35,459 nt of DNA from an uncultured Clostridia bacterium (GTDB taxonomy: Bacteria; Bacillota; Clostridia; Lachnospirales; Anaerotignaceae), in contig CAMBLO010000026.1 of NCBI GenBank assembly GCA_945868505.1, forward strand, positions 1 to 35,459. The letters run 5' to 3'. A model generated the notes under the pieces. It ran no database searches. It worked only from the letters and a program-made list of their open reading frames with translations, and was not told the DNA's origin. The translations under genes and the position numbers were made by a program. Below are positions 1 through 11,290 of the stretch, in pieces; the first letter of the stretch is position 1; every line of letters starts with the position of its first letter.

Positions 1-422
1 GTATTATAGTACATCTGTTTATAAATCGTGTCCACTTATTTAATATAGATCCAATCCAGAGTAAACGTGAACATATACTAGATGATTTACTAAACGATAT
101 TATTGATGAAATTGGATATCAAAAAAAGGATATGGTTTTTGCGGAGGAAGAAAAAAGGTTATTAATGCAATATGAAGAATTAATAAAGGGGGAATGTGAG
201 GTTTCAAACCAAAAAAGCCGTATTGAACTAATTAGGAAAGAAATTGAAGAGATTGTGAAAAAGGATATGATATTTGATTTTTTTGCATGTCATATTTTAA
301 AAATTATTGTATTTGAAGACAAAATACAAATTCACTTTGATATTTTTCCGGTTGTTGAAATGGATGTTATTGGGTCTGGGATAGAACAAGTTATTTCTTT
401 TAAAAATGAAAATGAAATCTAA
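1..422 (+). CDS. Large serine recombinase, C-terminal end only (cut by window start)
   Basis: The reading frame is open from position 3 to the stop at 420-422, so the gene begins outside the window; the ATG at 132 is internal. The visible 139 residues are a charged, probably coiled-coil stretch followed by a C-terminal block (FFACHILKIIVFEDKIQIHF) that matches, in order and spacing, the end of the complete recombinase just downstream (FFSEHVKRILVSNDKIEIEF). This supports a tandem pair of related large serine recombinases. The catalytic N-terminal domain is not in view, so whether the gene is intact cannot be judged. Composition is AT-rich like its neighbour. It ends 49 bp before the next recombinase and is probably cotranscribed with it. 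Confidence 0.75.
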   Translation, partial: IIVHLFINRVHLFNIDPIQSKREHILDDLLNDIIDEIGYQKKDMVFAEEEKRLLMQYEELIKGECEVSNQKSRIELIRKEIEEIVKKDMIFDFFACHILKIIVFEDKIQIHFDIFPVVEMDVIGSGIEQVISFKNENEI

Positions 423-471
423 GAATTAACTGTTATATTTTGATTGATGAATCTGGGAAAAGAGGAATTTT

Positions 472-2055
472 ATGAAAGCTGTTATTTATTGCAGAGTCAG
501 TACTGAAGATGAAGTTCAAGTAAATGCATTGGAGATGCAAATTACTGAAGCAAGGGATGCAGTTCATAAAAATGGTTGGGAATTGGTTGATGAATATATT
601 GATGAAGGAAAATCAGGAACAACTACAAAACGGCGTAAAGAGTACAATAGATTGATTGATGACTTGGAGATAGCAAAATTTGATGTGATTGTTGTTAAGT
701 CTCAGGATAGACTCATGCGTTCGGCAAAGGATTGGTATGTTTTCATTGATAAATTAATAGCCAATAAGAAAAAATTATACTTTTATCTAGAAAAACAATT
801 TTATAGTTTGGATGATACGCTAATTACTGGCATTAAGGCGATTTTGGCTGAAGAATATAGTCGTGACCTTTCTAAAAAGATGAATAACATGCATCGACAC
901 AGACAAGAGAATAAAGGAACAGTACTTTTGACTTCTAATACATGGGGATACGATAAAGTTAACAAAAACGTTGTTATTAATGAAAAGGAAGCGGAGATTG
1001 TTAGAGAAATTTTTAATTTGTATTTAGAAGGATTCGGTATTAGAAGAATTGCGAATAAGTTAAATAAAAAAGGAGTTCGTACGAGAAATGGAAACGAACT
1101 TTCAACATCAACAATTACAGCTATTCTTAAAAACCCATTGTTTAAAGGGACACAGATTATGAATAGATTTCATTACGATTTTAATACGAAACGAAGTGAA
1201 AAAATTCCAGAGTCTGAATGGATATATTATGAAAATGCCGTTCCGGCAATTGTTGATGCTACAATTTGGGATGCCGTGAACGAACGTATGAAACAAAAAC
1301 ATATAGTTAAAACACAAGAGAATAATATAACGGTAACATATGGTAAACATACAGGAAAGCATCCGCTGTCAGGGAAGATTTTTTGTGGAGAATGCGGCTC
1401 GGTTTACTGGTTAAGAAGCAGAGAAAAGAAAAACGGATATTCGCATTATTGGTATTGTTCAAAGTATTTCAAACATGGCAGAAAAACGAAAATAAGGGCA
1501 GATGGTACAGTTGAAAGTAGAGAACATGGGTGTGATAACATCAAACTGAAAACCTCGGAACTTGAAAAAATTATGGTAAATTTAATTCCAGAATCAGAAT
1601 TAGATAAAGAAGGCCTTATGAACGCAGCAATTGAAATAACTCAAACACTCCGTCAAAACCAGATTGATACAATGGTGGCAGAATGGCAAATTTCGTTAAA
1701 TAATATAAAAGAAAAACGTAAAAAATTAAATAAAATGATTGCACAAGGACTTCTAGAAAGCAATGTTGCAAAAAGAAAGGATAATAAACTTTTAGAAGAA
1801 GAGCTGGAGTTGGAAATCAAAATTGAAACTGGTATTTCATCGAATGACATTGCTGAAGTTGATAACAGATTTAATAATATTATCAAAGAGATACGACGAT
1901 ATGTTGAAACTGAACTTCCGGCGAAGTTTTTTTCCGAACATGTAAAACGTATTTTGGTGTCAAATGACAAAATTGAAATTGAATTTGATTATCTTCCCAA
2001 AAAAGAAATTGGGATTAAATATATTAATGACAAAAACTATGAATTCATTTTATAA
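472..2055 (+). CDS. Large serine recombinase (integrase/transposase of a mobile element)
   Basis: A 527-residue protein with the full layout of large serine recombinases that integrate and excise elements. The N-terminal resolvase domain (about 1-150) starts MKAVIYCRVSTEDE, with Ser10 as the expected nucleophile next to Arg8 and an SQDRLMRS segment carrying the usual arginines. A recombinase DNA-binding domain follows (about 155-250, ending in STSTITAILKNPLFKG), then a zinc ribbon with Cys305, Cys308, Cys329 and Cys354, a coiled coil (about 400-470) and a C-terminal block shared with the upstream recombinase tail. No domain is visibly missing. A Shine-Dalgarno AGAGGA precedes the ATG. It is AT-rich compared with genes after 4.3 kb, which fits a transferred element. 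Confidence 0.93.
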   Translation: MKAVIYCRVSTEDEVQVNALEMQITEARDAVHKNGWELVDEYIDEGKSGTTTKRRKEYNRLIDDLEIAKFDVIVVKSQDRLMRSAKDWYVFIDKLIANKKKLYFYLEKQFYSLDDTLITGIKAILAEEYSRDLSKKMNNMHRHRQENKGTVLLTSNTWGYDKVNKNVVINEKEAEIVREIFNLYLEGFGIRRIANKLNKKGVRTRNGNELSTSTITAILKNPLFKGTQIMNRFHYDFNTKRSEKIPESEWIYYENAVPAIVDATIWDAVNERMKQKHIVKTQENNITVTYGKHTGKHPLSGKIFCGECGSVYWLRSREKKNGYSHYWYCSKYFKHGRKTKIRADGTVESREHGCDNIKLKTSELEKIMVNLIPESELDKEGLMNAAIEITQTLRQNQIDTMVAEWQISLNNIKEKRKKLNKMIAQGLLESNVAKRKDNKLLEEELELEIKIETGISSNDIAEVDNRFNNIIKEIRRYVETELPAKFFSEHVKRILVSNDKIEIEFDYLPKKEIGIKYINDKNYEFIL

Positions 2056-2096
2056 CGAAGAATCAAGGTTACATTTGCATATAAGACTGATATGTA

Positions 2097-2124
2097 TTGA
2101 AATTTAAATTAATTTTGGTACAAT
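2097..2124 (+). promoter_or_regulatory. Promoter of the element-borne radical SAM gene
   Basis: TTGAAA (2097-2102), a 16-bp spacer, then TACAAT (2119-2124), 34 bp before the ATG at 2159. It suggests the gene has its own promoter and does not depend on readthrough from the recombinase. Confidence 0.55.
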
Positions 2125-2158
2125 AGTAATGTTATTTAACGAAATGGAAGGTGATTAT

Positions 2159-3313
2159 ATGGAACAAGGTGTATTTCAAATTGGACCAATTCGTCCACCC
2201 AGTGAAGCAAATAGCTTATTACTTCGTGTAACGGAAAACTGTCCATGGAACAAATGTCGTTTTTGTAAATTATACAAAAAGAACGATTTCCATATCCGAC
2301 AAGTCGAAGATGTCAAAAAAGATATTGATACTATGGCAGAACTGCGTGACCGTATCTTAAGGCATTACAAAAACGACGAATGGGATATTGAATCTGTTAA
2401 TAAAGAATATCAAACATTGACTTCGGATGACCAGCGCTGGTGTTACCAGATGGTATTCCGTTGGCTAACGGAAGGTGATAGCAATTCCATCTTCCTTCAG
2501 GATGCGAATACGATGTGTTTGCGTGTTGACTGGCTGACAGAAATTATTCGTTATGTACGTGTGAAGCTTCCGGAAATAAAGCGTGTAACATCTTATGGCA
2601 GAGCAAACACACTGGCGAAAATCAGCACGGAAGATTATAAGCGCCTCAAGGAAGCGGGTCTAGACCGTATACACTCTGGTTATGAATCTGGGTCCGATAA
2701 AGTGCTTGCACTTATTGAGAAAGGCTGTACACAGGAAGAACAGATTATAGGTGGCAGAAAAGTAAGAGATGCTGGCATTGAGTTATCTATTTATTTTATG
2801 CCTGGCGTTGGTGGTAGAGAACTATCTGATGACAATGCTATAGAAACAGCGAAAGTTATCAGTGCCGTTAATCCTAATTTTGTACGTCTGCGTACGTTTG
2901 TGCTGCGAACAGGCTCATTAATGGAAGAAGTTCGTGATTCTGGTCACTGGACAGAAGGTACTGATATCGAGAAGCTTTTGGAAATCCGAAAAATGATTTC
3001 TAGTATTGACTCTTCCAAAGTGAACGGTAAAATCACAAGTGACCATATCATTAATCTGCTTCAAGAAGTTAATGGGGATATGGATACGGATATTCCCTGG
3101 ATGTTGGAGTACATTGACTCATTCTTGGCGTTACCTAAATTAGAACAGCGGAAATATCAGATGGCTCGTCGTATGGGATTCCCTCTGGACTGGAAACAGC
3201 TGTGGCGTATGCGCGAAAGCGACAGACTTATCATAGAGGATTTAGCCAAAAATATTGTTGATGAGCACGAGTGGGAGAAAAAGTTACATGTGTATATGGA
3301 CCACTACATTTAA
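2159..3313 (+). CDS. Radical SAM protein, full-length copy carried by the element
   Basis: A 384-residue radical SAM enzyme of unknown substrate. Cys28, Cys33 and Cys36 (NCPWNKCRFC) form a CX4CX2C cluster; this spacing occurs in a clostridial radical SAM group with the CPWN motif, and should ligate the [4Fe-4S] cluster that cleaves S-adenosylmethionine. Later segments such as GLDRIHSGYESGSDKVL and SIYFMPGVGG fit the radical SAM barrel. The ATG at 2159 follows GGAAGG; the in-frame ATG at 2129 has no ribosome site. Residues 37-384 align without gaps to the truncated copy at 4261-5307, differing at about 44 of 348 positions. Its codons are AT-rich like the recombinases and unlike the second copy, suggesting it arrived with the element. 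Confidence 0.88.
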   Translation: MEQGVFQIGPIRPPSEANSLLLRVTENCPWNKCRFCKLYKKNDFHIRQVEDVKKDIDTMAELRDRILRHYKNDEWDIESVNKEYQTLTSDDQRWCYQMVFRWLTEGDSNSIFLQDANTMCLRVDWLTEIIRYVRVKLPEIKRVTSYGRANTLAKISTEDYKRLKEAGLDRIHSGYESGSDKVLALIEKGCTQEEQIIGGRKVRDAGIELSIYFMPGVGGRELSDDNAIETAKVISAVNPNFVRLRTFVLRTGSLMEEVRDSGHWTEGTDIEKLLEIRKMISSIDSSKVNGKITSDHIINLLQEVNGDMDTDIPWMLEYIDSFLALPKLEQRKYQMARRMGFPLDWKQLWRMRESDRLIIEDLAKNIVDEHEWEKKLHVYMDHYI

Positions 3314-4251
3314 AGAATTACTAAATTACCGTTAGGTTCATTATGACAAAAAAGAGTAATATATATGAAGCTTCAGACTCCTATAATAAATAATAATACT
3401 GGATTATTGCCATGCAGAATAAAAAAATATGATGACATATTATAGATATATGGAAAGAGGCATACATTTATGAATAAATAAATGTCATTAGCCACTGTTA
3501 GAACTTGGCAAAAAATATCCAAGTATGGCTCCCTTGATTCAACTGATTCCAGACCAAAGGTAAAATACATGGTAGTATCGGACAATTACAGCTACATTTC
3601 ATTGGAAGTCTTTGACCAATAATTATAGTTCGATATAGCCAAATCGTTTTTACTATTAATTACTATTTCGCATTGCTGCTTTCCCATTAAAGCGTTGTTT
3701 TAATGACCAAGAGAAATGCGACAGGTAACAGGATATTTTCTACAGAACGTTGAAAAAAATAATGCTTTCATCAGCTCTAATATGTTAATAATTTGGTTAT
3801 TGGCGGTTTCTTCTGACTGGAAATGGCGTTGGACACAATAGGGTTGTTTCTATTGGGTTCTAACACTGATTTATAATCTCAATGTTGAAATCAGTAAAAT
3901 AGCCTGTAAGATGATATTTGCTCTATTTTAAGTTAGTGAGATAAGTTTTGCAGTTAGGGGCTTAGAAAACTCAATTTGAAAGTTAACGATTTGAGGTAGT
4001 ATTAATAATCAGGCTCAAGAACAACTTTTTGAATTTTTTGTAAGAGCCTGTATTTGAATTAATGTGAGTCGAAGCCTTGAATAACAAATTATATGAGATT
4101 AGTAAGTTTTGTATCTAAATTCGTTACATAAACAATTTGTTTTAGGATAATTGTAATATTATTTTTCTGATTATTAAGTAAAGTCATTTACAGCTGTTTA
4201 AAAATATATTATATTATACATAGCCAAAGAGTCGGAATGTAGCGATAGGTA
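3314..4251. other. Gene-free AT-rich end of the putative integrative element
   Basis: About 940 bp with no credible gene. It is strongly AT-rich with many stops in all frames. A 7-bp inverted repeat (CAGGCTC at 4010-4016, GAGCCTG at 4044-4050) is present but too loosely spaced for a clear terminator. The right boundary of the foreign DNA lies near 4251, where similarity to the host radical SAM gene begins. Attachment sequences for a serine recombinase should be at that edge, but I cannot define a core without the left junction. Confidence 0.55.
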
Positions 4252-5307
4252 AAATTTTGCATGCTCTATAAAAAATACGATTTCCATACCCGCCCTGTGG
4301 AAGATGTCAAAAAGGATATCGATACCATGGCAGAACTGCGCGATCGTATCCTGCAGTATAAAAAAGACGGTGAATGGGATATTACTGCCATCAATCAGGA
4401 TTATCAGACCCTGACAACGGATGACCAGCGTTGGTGCTACCAGATGGTGTTCCGTTGGATGACAGAAGGTGACTGCAATTCTATTTTCCTGCAGGATGCC
4501 AATACCATGTGCCTGCGTGCCGACTGGCTGGCGGAAATTATCCGCTATGTGCGCGTAAAGCTGCCTGAAATCAAGCGTATCACATCCTATGGCAGAGCCA
4601 ATACCTTGGCAAAGATCAGCCCTGAGGATTATAAAATGCTGAAGGAAGCAGGCTTAGACCGTATCCATTCCGGCTATGAATCTGGTTCTGATAAGGTGCT
4701 GGCTCTCATCGAAAAGGGCTGTACCCAGGAAGAACAGATCATCGGCGGCAGAAAGGTAAGAGAAGCAGGCATTGAGCTTTCCATCTATTTCATGCCCGGT
4801 GTGGGCGGGAAAGAGCTTTCCGATGATAATGCCATTGAAACAGCGAAGGTCATCAATGCGGTGAACCCCAATTTCGTTCGCCTGCGTACCTTCGTTCTGC
4901 GTACTGGCTCTCTGATGGAAGAAGTGCGGGATGCCGGTGGCTGGACAGAGGATACCGATATGAATAAGCTGCTGGAAATCCGCAAGCTTCTGGCGCATAT
5001 CGACCCCACAAAGGCCAACGGCAGAATCACCAGTGACCATATCATCAACCTGCTGCAGGAGGTCAACGGCGATATGGATACAGACCTGCCCTGGATGCTG
5101 GAATATATCGATTCCTTCTTAGCACTGCCCGAACTGGAGCAGAGAAAATATCAGATGGCTCGCCGCATGGGTTTCCCTCTGGACTGGAAGCAGCTTTGGC
5201 GTATGCGTGAAAGCGACCAGCGCATCATTGAGGATCTGGCGAAAAATATCGTCGATGAAAATGAATGGGAAAAGAAACTTCATACCTATATGGATCACTA
5301 TATTTAA
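4252..5307 (+). pseudogene. Radical SAM gene, host copy truncated at its 5' end
   Basis: From 4261 this frame encodes 348 residues matching residues 37-384 of the copy at 2159-3313 with no gaps (about 87% identical, counted by hand). Similarity extends upstream only to codons AAA TTT TGC (4252-4260), equal to Arg34-Phe35-Cys36 of the full copy, then ends; an in-frame TAG lies at 4246-4248. The first 36 residues, including two of the three cluster cysteines, are lost, so a product made from the ATG at 4261 could not carry the normal [4Fe-4S] cluster. Codon use is GC-richer and like the genes downstream, so this is the likely resident gene. It leads into the small gene at 5321, whose ribosome site overlaps its stop. 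Confidence 0.85.
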
Positions 5308-5320
5308 GGAGGTGTTGTAG

Positions 5321-5524
5321 ATGACAACAGAAACTCTTTTTACTGCGATCATCCCCGCGATACTGATTTTTTTCCTGGTATTCTTCAATATCCGTAAAAT
5401 GCAGAAGCAGGCGAAGATCATGCGTATGGAAAAGGAAGGCAAATGCGGTAGCGGCTGTGCAGGCTGTGCCCATAGTGCCGGTTGCAATTCTCCTCAGAAA
5501 AAGGAAGAAGATTTGAAGAAATAA
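5321..5524 (+). CDS. Small Cys-rich single-pass membrane protein (FeoB-associated-like)
   Basis: A 67-residue protein with one N-terminal membrane segment (about 8-24), a basic stretch (RKMQKQAKIMR) and a cysteine cluster (GKCGSGCAGCAHSAGC) before a charged tail. This layout resembles the FeoB-associated Cys-rich membrane protein family, but no feoB is in the window, so the name is tentative. AAGGAGG lies 8 bp before the ATG and overlaps the stop of the truncated radical SAM gene, so the two were an operon; the insertion at 4.25 kb probably separated this gene from its original promoter. A strong terminator follows at once. Confidence 0.75.
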   Translation: MTTETLFTAIIPAILIFFLVFFNIRKMQKQAKIMRMEKEGKCGSGCAGCAHSAGCNSPQKKEEDLKK

Positions 5525-8080: not shown

Positions 8081-8887
8081 ATGCCCAATAACAATTGGTA
8101 TGAAACAAGTGATGATATGATGATGCCCCTGCCTTTGATGGCAGAGCAGGCGGATGAAGCCGTAGATGAAAGAACCCTGACGGAGGAAATGGTGGATGAT
8201 ACTGCCCGCCGCCGTTTTCCCAGCATCACATTGCCCAATAATACCAATATCACTGTGATTCCCATTATCCCCGGTATCACCCTTTTTGGATATATCCGTT
8301 TTATGAACGCCAGCCCCGCCGAAACGAGGGTAGATATCTATGTCAATGGGCGGAAGGTTGCCTCCAATCTGCTGTACCGCAATTTTACGGAATATATGAA
8401 GGTCTTTCCCGGCTGGTACCGCATCGCTGTCTATGCCGCAGGCACGATCCGTAACCCCCTGACGGTAACGACCTTGCAGATAGAGGCCAACAGTATCACC
8501 ACATTGGCAGTCATTGGTCTTTCCGGGGATATCTCTACTTTAGCCATCAATGACAGCCGCCGTTTCCTGAATCGGAACCGTGCTTATGTCCGCTTTGTGC
8601 AGCTTTCCCCCAATGCACCCACTATGGATGCCTACTGGGATGATTCTCTTGTTGTGTCAGAATTGAATTATCAGGATATCAGCCGCTATATGACCACCAC
8701 CCCCGGCAGCCATAATCTGAAGATGCGGGATAGCCTTAGCGGGGCAAATCTGGTGGAACATCCCAATGTGAGGGTAGAGGGCGGTAAGGCCTATACCATT
8801 TATGTGGTGGGGGATATTACCGACAGAACAGGTCTGCAGGTTTTGATTCCTCTGGAAGGCAATACCTATTTGAATTTTGGAGAGTAA
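8081..8887 (+). CDS. DUF4397-domain protein
   Basis: A 268-residue protein with two beta-rich repeats of DUF4397 type: YIRFMNASPAETRVDIYVNG (from about residue 71) and YVRFVQLSPNAPTMDAYWDD (from about residue 168). Each is followed by the family pattern of a short aromatic segment and a PGWYRI- or PGSHNL-like turn. The first 60 residues are acidic, Met-rich and lack a clear signal peptide. DUF4397 proteins are usually surface or secreted proteins of unknown role; the missing signal makes location uncertain. An AGAGG sequence lies about 12 bp before the ATG, a little far. It stands alone between two transcription units. Confidence 0.82.
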   Translation: MPNNNWYETSDDMMMPLPLMAEQADEAVDERTLTEEMVDDTARRRFPSITLPNNTNITVIPIIPGITLFGYIRFMNASPAETRVDIYVNGRKVASNLLYRNFTEYMKVFPGWYRIAVYAAGTIRNPLTVTTLQIEANSITTLAVIGLSGDISTLAINDSRRFLNRNRAYVRFVQLSPNAPTMDAYWDDSLVVSELNYQDISRYMTTTPGSHNLKMRDSLSGANLVEHPNVRVEGGKAYTIYVVGDITDRTGLQVLIPLEGNTYLNFGE

Positions 8888-8944
8888 GCTTCGATAAATT
8901 CAATGGATTTTTTTCTAAAAAAACTATACGAAAGTTGAAATAAT

Positions 8945-8953
8945 TGATATAAT
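8945..8953 (+). promoter_or_regulatory. Extended -10 promoter of coaBC
   Basis: TGATATAAT at 8945-8953 has a perfect TATAAT with a TGn extension, 67 bp before the start codon. No good -35 box is visible, which is acceptable for an extended -10 promoter. Confidence 0.5.
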
Positions 8954-9020
8954 GTTCACAATGAAATTGAATCTGCTCGAAAAAATTTTTGAGAAGTACG
9001 ATTGAAAAAGGAGAATCATC

Positions 9021-10223
9021 ATGTTAAAAGGAAAAACCGTTGTTTTAGGTATAACAGGCAGTATCGCTGCTTATAAAATGGCAAATGTGGCAAGTATGCT
9101 GGTGAAAATGGGCGCAGATGTTCATGTGATTATGACACAGAATGCCTGCCAGTTCATCACACCTGTTACCTTTGAAACACTGACAGGCAATAAATGTATG
9201 GTAGATACCTTTGACCGCAATTTCCAGTTCCATGTAGCCCATGTTTCCATTGCGAAAAAGGCTGATGTGCTGCTGATTGCTCCTGCTTCTGCAAATGTGA
9301 TTGGCAAACTGGCAAATGGCATTGCGGATGATATGCTGACAACAACAGCTATGGCTTGCACCTGCAAGACCATCATCGCTCCTGCTATGAATACCAATAT
9401 GTACCATAATCCCATTCTGCAGGATAACCTGAGAAAACTGGAAGGCTATGGCTATGAAATCATCGCCCCTGAAAAAGGTCTGCTGGCTTGCAGAGATATC
9501 GGCGATGGCAAAATGCCCTCCGAAGACGTCCTGATTGGTCATATCGTCAGAGAAATCGCTTACGAAAAAGACCTTGCGGGCATGAAAGTGATCGTAACTG
9601 CAGGCCCTACCCAGGAAAGCGTTGACCCTGTTCGCTATATCACAAACCATTCTACAGGCAAAATGGGCTATGAACTGGCGAAGGCAGCTATGCTGCGCGG
9701 TGCGGAGGTCACACTGGTTAGCGGCGTTACAGCACTGGAAAGACCTATGTTCGTGGATTTCGTGCAGGTAAAAAGTGCAGGGGATATGTTCGAAGCTATG
9801 AAGGCTCGCTTCCTGGATAACGATATCATCATCAAAGCTGCGGCTGTTGCCGATTACAAGCCCAAAAATTATAATGATGAAAAAACAAAGAAAAAAGATG
9901 GCGATATGTCCATCGAACTGGACAGAACACAGGATATCCTGAAATATATGGGCGAACATCGCAGAGAAGGGCAGTTCTACTGCGGCTTCTCCATGGAAAC
10001 ACAGAATATGCTGGAAAATTCCCGTGTAAAGCTGGATAAGAAAAACATCGACATGGTGGTTGCAAATAACCTGAAAATTGCCGGCAGCGGCTTTGGTACA
10101 GATACCAACGTGGTAACCATGATTTCCAAGCAGGAAGAAATCGAACTGGAGCTGCTGACAAAAGAAGAAGTAGCCCATAAGATTTTGGATGAAATTTTGA
10201 AGTTGAAAGCCTTGAAAGGCTGA
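9021..10223 (+). CDS. coaBC: Bifunctional phosphopantothenoylcysteine decarboxylase / phosphopantothenate-cysteine ligase
   Basis: A 400-residue CoaBC (Dfp) that makes 4'-phosphopantetheine for coenzyme A: the CoaB half joins cysteine to phosphopantothenate using CTP, and the CoaC half decarboxylates the product. The FMN-dependent CoaC domain (about 1-180) shows GITGSIAAYK, His74 in AHVSIAKKAD, Asn124 in PAMNTNMY and Cys157 in ACRDIGDGKMP, equal to the E. coli catalytic residues. The CoaB domain (about 188-400) begins VIVTAGPTQESVDPVRYITN and holds KAAAVADYKP. Length is normal. AAAGGAG precedes the ATG. It is monocistronic and ends at a hairpin terminator shared with the convergent idh operon. 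Confidence 0.96.
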   Translation: MLKGKTVVLGITGSIAAYKMANVASMLVKMGADVHVIMTQNACQFITPVTFETLTGNKCMVDTFDRNFQFHVAHVSIAKKADVLLIAPASANVIGKLANGIADDMLTTTAMACTCKTIIAPAMNTNMYHNPILQDNLRKLEGYGYEIIAPEKGLLACRDIGDGKMPSEDVLIGHIVREIAYEKDLAGMKVIVTAGPTQESVDPVRYITNHSTGKMGYELAKAAMLRGAEVTLVSGVTALERPMFVDFVQVKSAGDMFEAMKARFLDNDIIIKAAAVADYKPKNYNDEKTKKKDGDMSIELDRTQDILKYMGEHRREGQFYCGFSMETQNMLENSRVKLDKKNIDMVVANNLKIAGSGFGTDTNVVTMISKQEEIELELLTKEEVAHKILDEILKLKALKG

Positions 10224-10250
10224 TATGGAAATAGCATAATAAATAAAATG

Positions 10251-10280
10251 ACCCCCGCGGGATTTCCTGCGGGGGTTTCT
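10251..10280. terminator. Bidirectional terminator between coaBC and the citrate operon
   Basis: A GC-rich stem (ACCCCCGC at 10251-10258, GCGGGGGT at 10269-10276) with a short T run on the plus side and an ATTTTATTT stretch on the minus side. It lies between convergent genes ending at 10223 and 10292. Confidence 0.8.
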
Positions 10281-10291
10281 TGTGTTCTATA

Positions 10292-11290
10292 TTACAGCTT
10301 TGCGATGACTGCGTCAGCAAATGCTTCTGTGGAAGCTGTGCCGCCCATATCCTGTGTCAGTGTTTTCCCTTCGGAAATGACTTCGGATACGGCTTTTTCG
10401 ATGGCTGCCGCTGCTTTTGCTTCGCCCAGATGCGCCAGCATCAGGGAAGCGGAGAGGATGGCTGCTGTGGGGTTGATTTTATGCTGTCCTGCGATATCAG
10501 GGGCGGAACCGTGGATAGGTTCAAAAATGGCGCCGTCTACACCAATATTCGCACTGGGGGTCAGACCTAAGCCGCCTACCAGACCTGCACACAGGTCGGA
10601 AACGATATCACCGTAGAGGTTGGGGCAAACCAGTACATCATAATCTTCGGGATGCATCACCAGTCTCATACACATGGCATCTACGATGCTGTCGTTAAAT
10701 TCAATCTGGGGATATTCCTTGGCAATCTGTCTTGCCACATCCAAAAACAGACCGTCTGTGCATTTCATGATATTTGCCTTATGTACGGCTGTGACTTTCT
10801 TTCTGCCTTCTCGTACAGCATATTCAAAAGCATAACGGCAGATGCGTTCACAGCCTTTTCTTGTGATAAGCTTGATGCTTTCTGCGGCATCTTCGCCTAC
10901 CATGTGTTCGATGCCTGCGTAAAGGTCTTCTGTATTTTCACGGACGATCACCAAGTCGATGTTGTCGTATCTTGTGATAACGCCGGGATAGGTTTTTGCA
11001 GGACGCACGTTGGCATACAGGTCGAAGGTTTTACGCAGAGCAACGTTTACACTGCGAAAGCCTGTGCCAACGGGGGTGGTGATGGGGCCTTTCAAAGCAA
11101 CGCCGTTTTTGCGGATGGATTCGATGACATGGTCGGGCAGGGGAGTGCCGTATTTTTCAATCATGGCTGCGCCTGCTTCCATTTCGTCCCACTGGATATC
11201 CACGCCAGTGGCTTCAACGACTCTTTTTGCTGCAGCAACGACTTCGGGGCCGCTGCCGTCACCGGGGATCAAAGTTACTTTATGTGCCAT
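10292..11290 (-). CDS. icd: Isocitrate dehydrogenase, probably NAD-dependent
   Basis: A 332-residue beta-decarboxylating dehydrogenase that converts isocitrate to 2-oxoglutarate. The segment [20 protein letters not shown] carries the Ser and Asn of isocitrate-specific enzymes, separating it from isopropylmalate dehydrogenases. [11 protein letters not shown] and the metal site around [19 protein letters not shown] are present. The cofactor segment reads [14 protein letters not shown]; Asp-Ile replaces the Lys-Tyr of the NADP enzyme of E. coli, which points to NAD. Of two close start codons, 11290 is better spaced from AGGAAG than 11296. It follows aconitase and citrate synthase on the same strand, which supports the assignment; an array of hairpins lies between it and aconitase. 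Confidence 0.9.

Follow-up and report, generated by a model that had tools for sequence, protein, structure and literature searches.

The radical SAM locus and its recombinase genes

The window, meaning the whole stretch of 35,459 nucleotides analysed here, is an entire contig (G000:C26) of a draft genome of 2.53 Mb in 69 contigs, the near relatives of which are Anaerotignum and Lachnospirales-type MAGs. Its left part contains serine recombinase genes, a full radical SAM gene and a 5'-truncated copy of that gene (Table 1). A preliminary description of this DNA had reported two recombinase genes and the two radical SAM copies, and the coordinates of the full gene and the intactness of the second recombinase gene (472-2055) are confirmed, as is the truncation. 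The ORF at 132-422, which had been counted as the other recombinase gene, has no Pfam, NCBIfam or PHROG family match and belongs to a longer frame that is already open at base 3; it is likely the first of two recombinase genes, cut by the contig end.

Table 1. Features in the left part of the window
Feature	Position	Strand	Basis
Likely first serine recombinase, C-terminal 139 residues, frame open to contig end	3..422	+	Translation; 37% identity (51 aa) with the C-terminus of the second recombinase
Intact large serine recombinase, 527 aa	472..2055	+	PF00239, PF07508, PF13408; phrog_95 integrase
Promoter-like TTGAAA-16-TACAAT 5' of the full radical SAM copy	2097..2124	+	Consensus match only
Full radical SAM gene, 384 aa, on the putative element	2159..3313	+	PF04055; clade with P0122 and P0123
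Codons 34-46 of the full copy with R34, K37 and I46 (K, M and T in hosts)	2258..2296	+	Alignment
AT-rich stretch (30% G+C) without long open frame, reaching the junction	3314..4251	+	
Junction stretch AAATTTTGCATG, codons 34-37, where host sequence resumes; crossover base known approximately	4252..4263	+	Alignment with host loci
5'-truncated host radical SAM gene	4252..5307	+	
FeoB-associated Cys-rich protein, downstream neighbour in relatives too	5321..5524	+	PF12669; synteny

The G+C content is 32% in the recombinase gene, 41% in the full copy, 30% in the spacer of 938 AT-rich bases between the full copy and the junction, and 48.5% in the truncated copy. The corresponding GC3 values are 26% for the recombinase, 38% for the full copy and 57.5% for the truncated copy, with five host alleles at 53-58.5%. 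Together with synteny, these values agree with the earlier characterization of the full copy as AT-rich and the truncated copy as host-like. Between positions 1 and 5400, 29 promoter-like sites were found, compared with 20.8 in shuffled sequences, and the site upstream of the full copy is identified as such by its consensus alone. Searches for tandem repeats and with Rfam and PADLOC found nothing, and a search for inverted-repeat symmetry at the cut site gave nothing clear.

The product of the intact recombinase gene comprises Resolvase, Recombinase and zinc-ribbon domains and begins with a CRVST motif, the serine of which we take to be catalytic. Relatives of this enzyme at E<=1e-90 were found in five of 391 other genomes sampled from the order, one of them with internal stops. 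Recombinase relatives adjoin ABC permease genes in L156, L157 and L159, in which the Pfam match ends at profile position 146-154 of 184, and a Crp-like regulator gene in L158. As relatives thus lie beside cut permease genes and a regulator gene, fixed sites within conserved genes are the likely targets of this recombinase group, a specificity that the available part of one source describes as frequent among large serine recombinases (PMC10083194). No second ABC permease copy was present in the L156, L157 and L159 stretches, and among the members of the group analysed, only the present element carries a copy of its target.

Within the draft genome, 18 resolvase-domain matches lie mostly in large serine recombinase frames, and the partial resolvase domains on contigs C37 and C60 are close to contig ends. 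A pair of a full and a truncated gene like the present one was not found in any of 13 other recombinase stretches of this genome (L194-L203, L162, L164 and L166, a set that leaves out C1, C37 and C60); L202 contains two full-length paralogues (70%), and weaker pairs of 23-45% occur in L195, L197, L198, L201 and L203. On another contig (L200, G000:C2:1-19999), a 668-aa serine recombinase (8437-10443) has a 115-residue tail, of which a 95.7% identical version forms a 122-aa gene of its own 3 kb away (5103-5471); the arrangement resembles the rumA type.

The truncated copy had been placed at 4261-5307, corresponding to residues 37-384. However, the ATG at 4261 is an internal Met, and homology begins three codons earlier, at codon 34 (base 4252), from which the host sequence AAATTTTGCATG, encoding K-F-C-M (codons 34-37), is the same as in relative L052. 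The host gene is cut directly past the second cysteine of its CX4CX2C iron-sulfur motif (C-P-W-N-K-C-K-F-C), leaving a frame without its own start and without two of the three motif cysteines. This copy is the one at the host locus, with the FeoB-associated gene downstream as in relatives, and its nearest DNA match among them is L034 (90.7%). Given that pS and pN to L034 are 0.347 and 0.021 and that the frame is still open, the cut is likely recent on this scale of divergence. Uninterrupted, near-identical alleles exist, as P0198, which is truncated by a contig edge, has a full N-terminus and equals the truncated copy at 280 of 287 positions. Neither a second copy nor this recombinase was present at any of 80 genome-contig loci (80 kept of 97 relatives) within the flanks fetched.

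The internal Met is also the first residue of several 348-aa proteins, namely P0217 (63 members), P0220, P0227, P0229 and P0242. These could derive from genes split at the same site elsewhere, an appearance that a contig edge within the first 36 codons mimics, and they are given no weight here. In relative G005, the radical SAM gene is cut by a contig edge, and an extra piece covering residues 331-384 (81%) lies on another contig.

Lineage of the full copy and its codons at the cut site

At the protein level, the full and truncated copies are 87.6% identical (347 aa), and at the DNA level 76.7% (1056 bases). In a tree of 29 rows, the truncated copy joins the host alleles L034, L035, L036 and L052 (support 97/98), and the full copy joins P0122 and P0123 (support 99/94), to which it is identical at 377 and 344 of 384 residues, respectively. 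As P0122 is listed without a source, it may be from the same species, and the clade may then represent just two lineages. Compared with six host-locus copies, the full copy has a pS of 0.82-0.87 in all cases, which is saturated, with a pN of 0.07-0.08 to the truncated copy, L034, L035 and L052, 0.13 to L037 and 0.19 to L043. Judged by these saturated synonymous sites with few amino-acid changes, the full copy is an old lineage maintained by selection and not a recent duplicate.

A full copy followed by a 5'-truncated copy in tandem is also what a single crossover leaves, and tandem duplication or single-crossover integration by homologous recombination within the radical SAM gene was considered as well. 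Such an origin is highly improbable, as identity between the two copies does not switch along the gene, synonymous sites are saturated and the copies fall in different clades. The full copy, an intact frame under purifying selection, is a conserved candidate replacement for the split gene. The earlier reading of it as a diverged replacement allele is upheld by this selection, by its AT-richer composition and by its distribution: radical SAM matches at E<=1e-50 occur in 39 of 58 genomes of the family, and the present genome is the only one with two.

The codons around the cut distinguish the full copy further. An alignment of the three element-type alleles with 124 further rows (119 proteins among the matches listed, the truncated copy and four host loci) has 157 columns that are at least 97% conserved in those rows. 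The only conserved columns at which all three element-type alleles jointly deviate are 34, 37 and 46, so that the carried copy differs from host alleles at the presumed target site. Residue 34 is R in the element-type alleles and K in 114 of 115 other rows; residue 37 is K, where the other rows have M (118/121) or T (3/121); and residue 46 is I, with T in 119 of 121 other rows. All three positions lie within codons 31-46, which hold 11 of the 157 conserved columns, a clustering for which the hypergeometric P of 2.6e-4 is descriptive only, because knowledge of the positions preceded the choice of the stretch. In ten control clades (1 to 11 rows), no joint deviation occurs within codons 31-46, and two deviate elsewhere, at 66 and 26. 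At the junction itself, six of 12 bases differ in the full copy (P 0.04 vs the gene-wide rate), and in 42-base windows the DNA at the cut site is not unusually divergent. Residue 46 sits 27 bases from the junction codon 37, which is at or past the usual reach of such a recombinase site.

Across 80 more varied genome-contig loci, R occupies position 34 in 13, and position 37 holds M in 30, E in 22, Q in 16 and other residues in the rest, but never K. The enzyme family thus tolerates changes at these positions, and the changes in the element copy could be drift. This variation among distant relatives at residue 37 is in keeping with passenger capture, in which the radical SAM gene of an earlier host was taken up from beside the integration site, the copy being incidental and its site changes drift. 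The location of the gene near the element's end and the absence of a known context for P0122 and P0123 fit such a capture as well. However, saturated synonymous sites with few protein changes indicate long maintenance by selection, and the shared deviations cluster at the cut; incidental capture is considered unlikely.

The left flank and other carriers

The preliminary description had expected an orphan 5' end of the host gene at the other edge of the element, but neither pattern searches nor DNA searches with the upstream DNA of relatives found the 5' end of the host gene in the assembly. The patterns RPPSEANS and NCPWNKC matched the element copy, NCPWNKC also having one match on C5 with two mismatches. 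With the upstream DNA of L052, a single match of 30 bases was obtained, on C2; that of L034 matched a deacetylase piece, the element copy and, weakly, C5. The first 150 bases of the window have no 16-mer in common with C46, C63, C39 or C49, which were compared as candidate contigs for the left half of the element.

The radical SAM gene of L034 and L037 has a divergent polysaccharide deacetylase gene as its neighbour. The present genome has a 365-base piece of this deacetylase gene on contig C32 (L193, G000:C32:1-15000), cut at the FDAAWGA codons, where AT-rich, phage-like DNA encoding HU-like and HNH-type proteins begins, and cut again on the other side, apparently at the same place as in L034. 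Deacetylase residues 186-263 are found on contig C63 (L162), directly after another large serine recombinase, and residues 1-70 were not found in the assembly. With the deacetylase gene cut at two motifs, one of them beside another recombinase, at least two elements have hit this gene pair. The host DNA between deacetylase codon 70 and radical SAM codon 33 has either been deleted or is missing from the assembly.

Of the attachment junctions, the right one is seen, the matching left half of the gene was not found and attL was not seen. With a different and itself cut gene on the left flank and no 5' orphan in the assembly, a simple insertion does not account for the left edge, and the earlier claim of an element that splits the gene is thus retained for the right junction and the recombinase genes to its left, but not as a clean insertion flanked by both gene halves. 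Excision that rebuilds the host gene, as in developmentally excised interrupters of the skin or gin type, might no longer be possible, given that the assembly yielded no 5' half.

Alternatively, there may be two or more separate elements: the recombinases of the window would belong to one of them, and another event, such as a deletion that took half of the deacetylase gene with it, would have cut the radical SAM gene. In favour of this, the neighbouring deacetylase gene is cut twice, once beside the C63 recombinase, and searches of the assembly did not find the host DNA between the two edges. An origin by such separate events is nevertheless rather improbable, as the right junction agrees with a precise site in the motif and the full copy differs exactly there.

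In IMG/VR, no relative of the radical SAM protein or of the HNH-type protein was found, and relatives of the recombinase occur at two loci (44% and 39%). Four viral contigs with the element-type motif pattern were rejected, as their match to the enzyme is limited to nine residues around the pattern. Plasmid and phage searches gave only distant matches. One phage record from human faeces (MT835575.1, 230-1123) carries, at its extreme end, a radical SAM gene of 34% identity, possibly in flanking host DNA.

Proposed mechanism and related systems

The best explanation, and on balance a probable one, is that an element integrates in the host gene at its iron-sulfur motif and carries an old, diverged replacement copy that escapes the recombinase. 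The cut within a near-invariant motif and the recombinase genes 2.2 kb away favour this explanation, and the 19 of 58 family genomes without a match at E<=1e-50, some of them incomplete, count against it. From the sequence, we infer integration by the recombinase, rescue of the host function and resistance of the carried copy. The junction and nearby genes suggest that the element's recombinase would first have joined element and chromosome at the CKFC|MLY codons. The host gene is seen in the sequence to have lost its start and two of the three motif cysteines. The element copy, with its promoter-like site, would then supply the enzyme, as its intact frame, few amino-acid changes and saturated synonymous divergence suggest. 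Finally, K34R, M37K and T46I with their surrounding codons may, judging by their position, spare the element copy as a target. The left side in the present assembly would be rearranged or incomplete.

Islands that rebuild the end of the gene they enter usually supply only a gene end at the attachment site, unlike the present element, whose replacement is a complete, independent gene that lies about 0.9 kb away from the junction. According to the accessible part of one source, islands reconstitute the genes they enter in many cases, and target function is kept after integration, as is likewise predicted here (PMC12884075). The closest precedent, as described in the available text, is a 65-kb island in Pseudomonas putida KT2440 that splits tmk and whose last gene, PP_1964, encodes a T4-like kinase supplying the lost activity (PMC10653934). 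Common to both are a split gene, which may be needed here as it is in P. putida, and an element gene as its replacement, a role predicted in the present case. The P. putida island uses a non-homologous kinase and tyrosine recombinases, whereas the present element has serine recombinases and an ortholog altered at the cut, with rescue predicted. Serine-recombinase mobilizable elements, which a review in its available portion describes as disrupting dispensable genes, share with the present element a serine recombinase and insertion inside a conserved coding gene; a replacement copy, which the present element carries, is not named in that portion (PMC5704250). Similarly, the accessible part of PMC9513070 contains nothing on replacement copies. 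Searches of open-licence papers listed no element that carries an ortholog of its target gene with changes at the target site.

Designed home-and-rescue gene drives disrupt a gene by inserting into it and bring along a recoded copy that is resistant. These drives are engineered, nuclease-based and eukaryotic, while the present element is natural and recombinase-based, with resistance predicted. More tentatively, and with less confidence than for the explanation above, the element may be a natural home-and-rescue element, in which the recombinase targets the near-invariant motif, the carried allele is recoded and immune there, and loss of the 5' end has made the element incurable.

If this more tentative reading is true, the near-invariant iron-sulfur motif of a housekeeping-type enzyme would guarantee a landing site throughout the host group, and an element of this kind could settle in the catalytic motifs of genes that are needed. 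If the 5' end of the host gene is lost, the element would be the only source of the enzyme and could not be cured. The host would then be tied to its element, which would be a natural counterpart of designed rescue drives.
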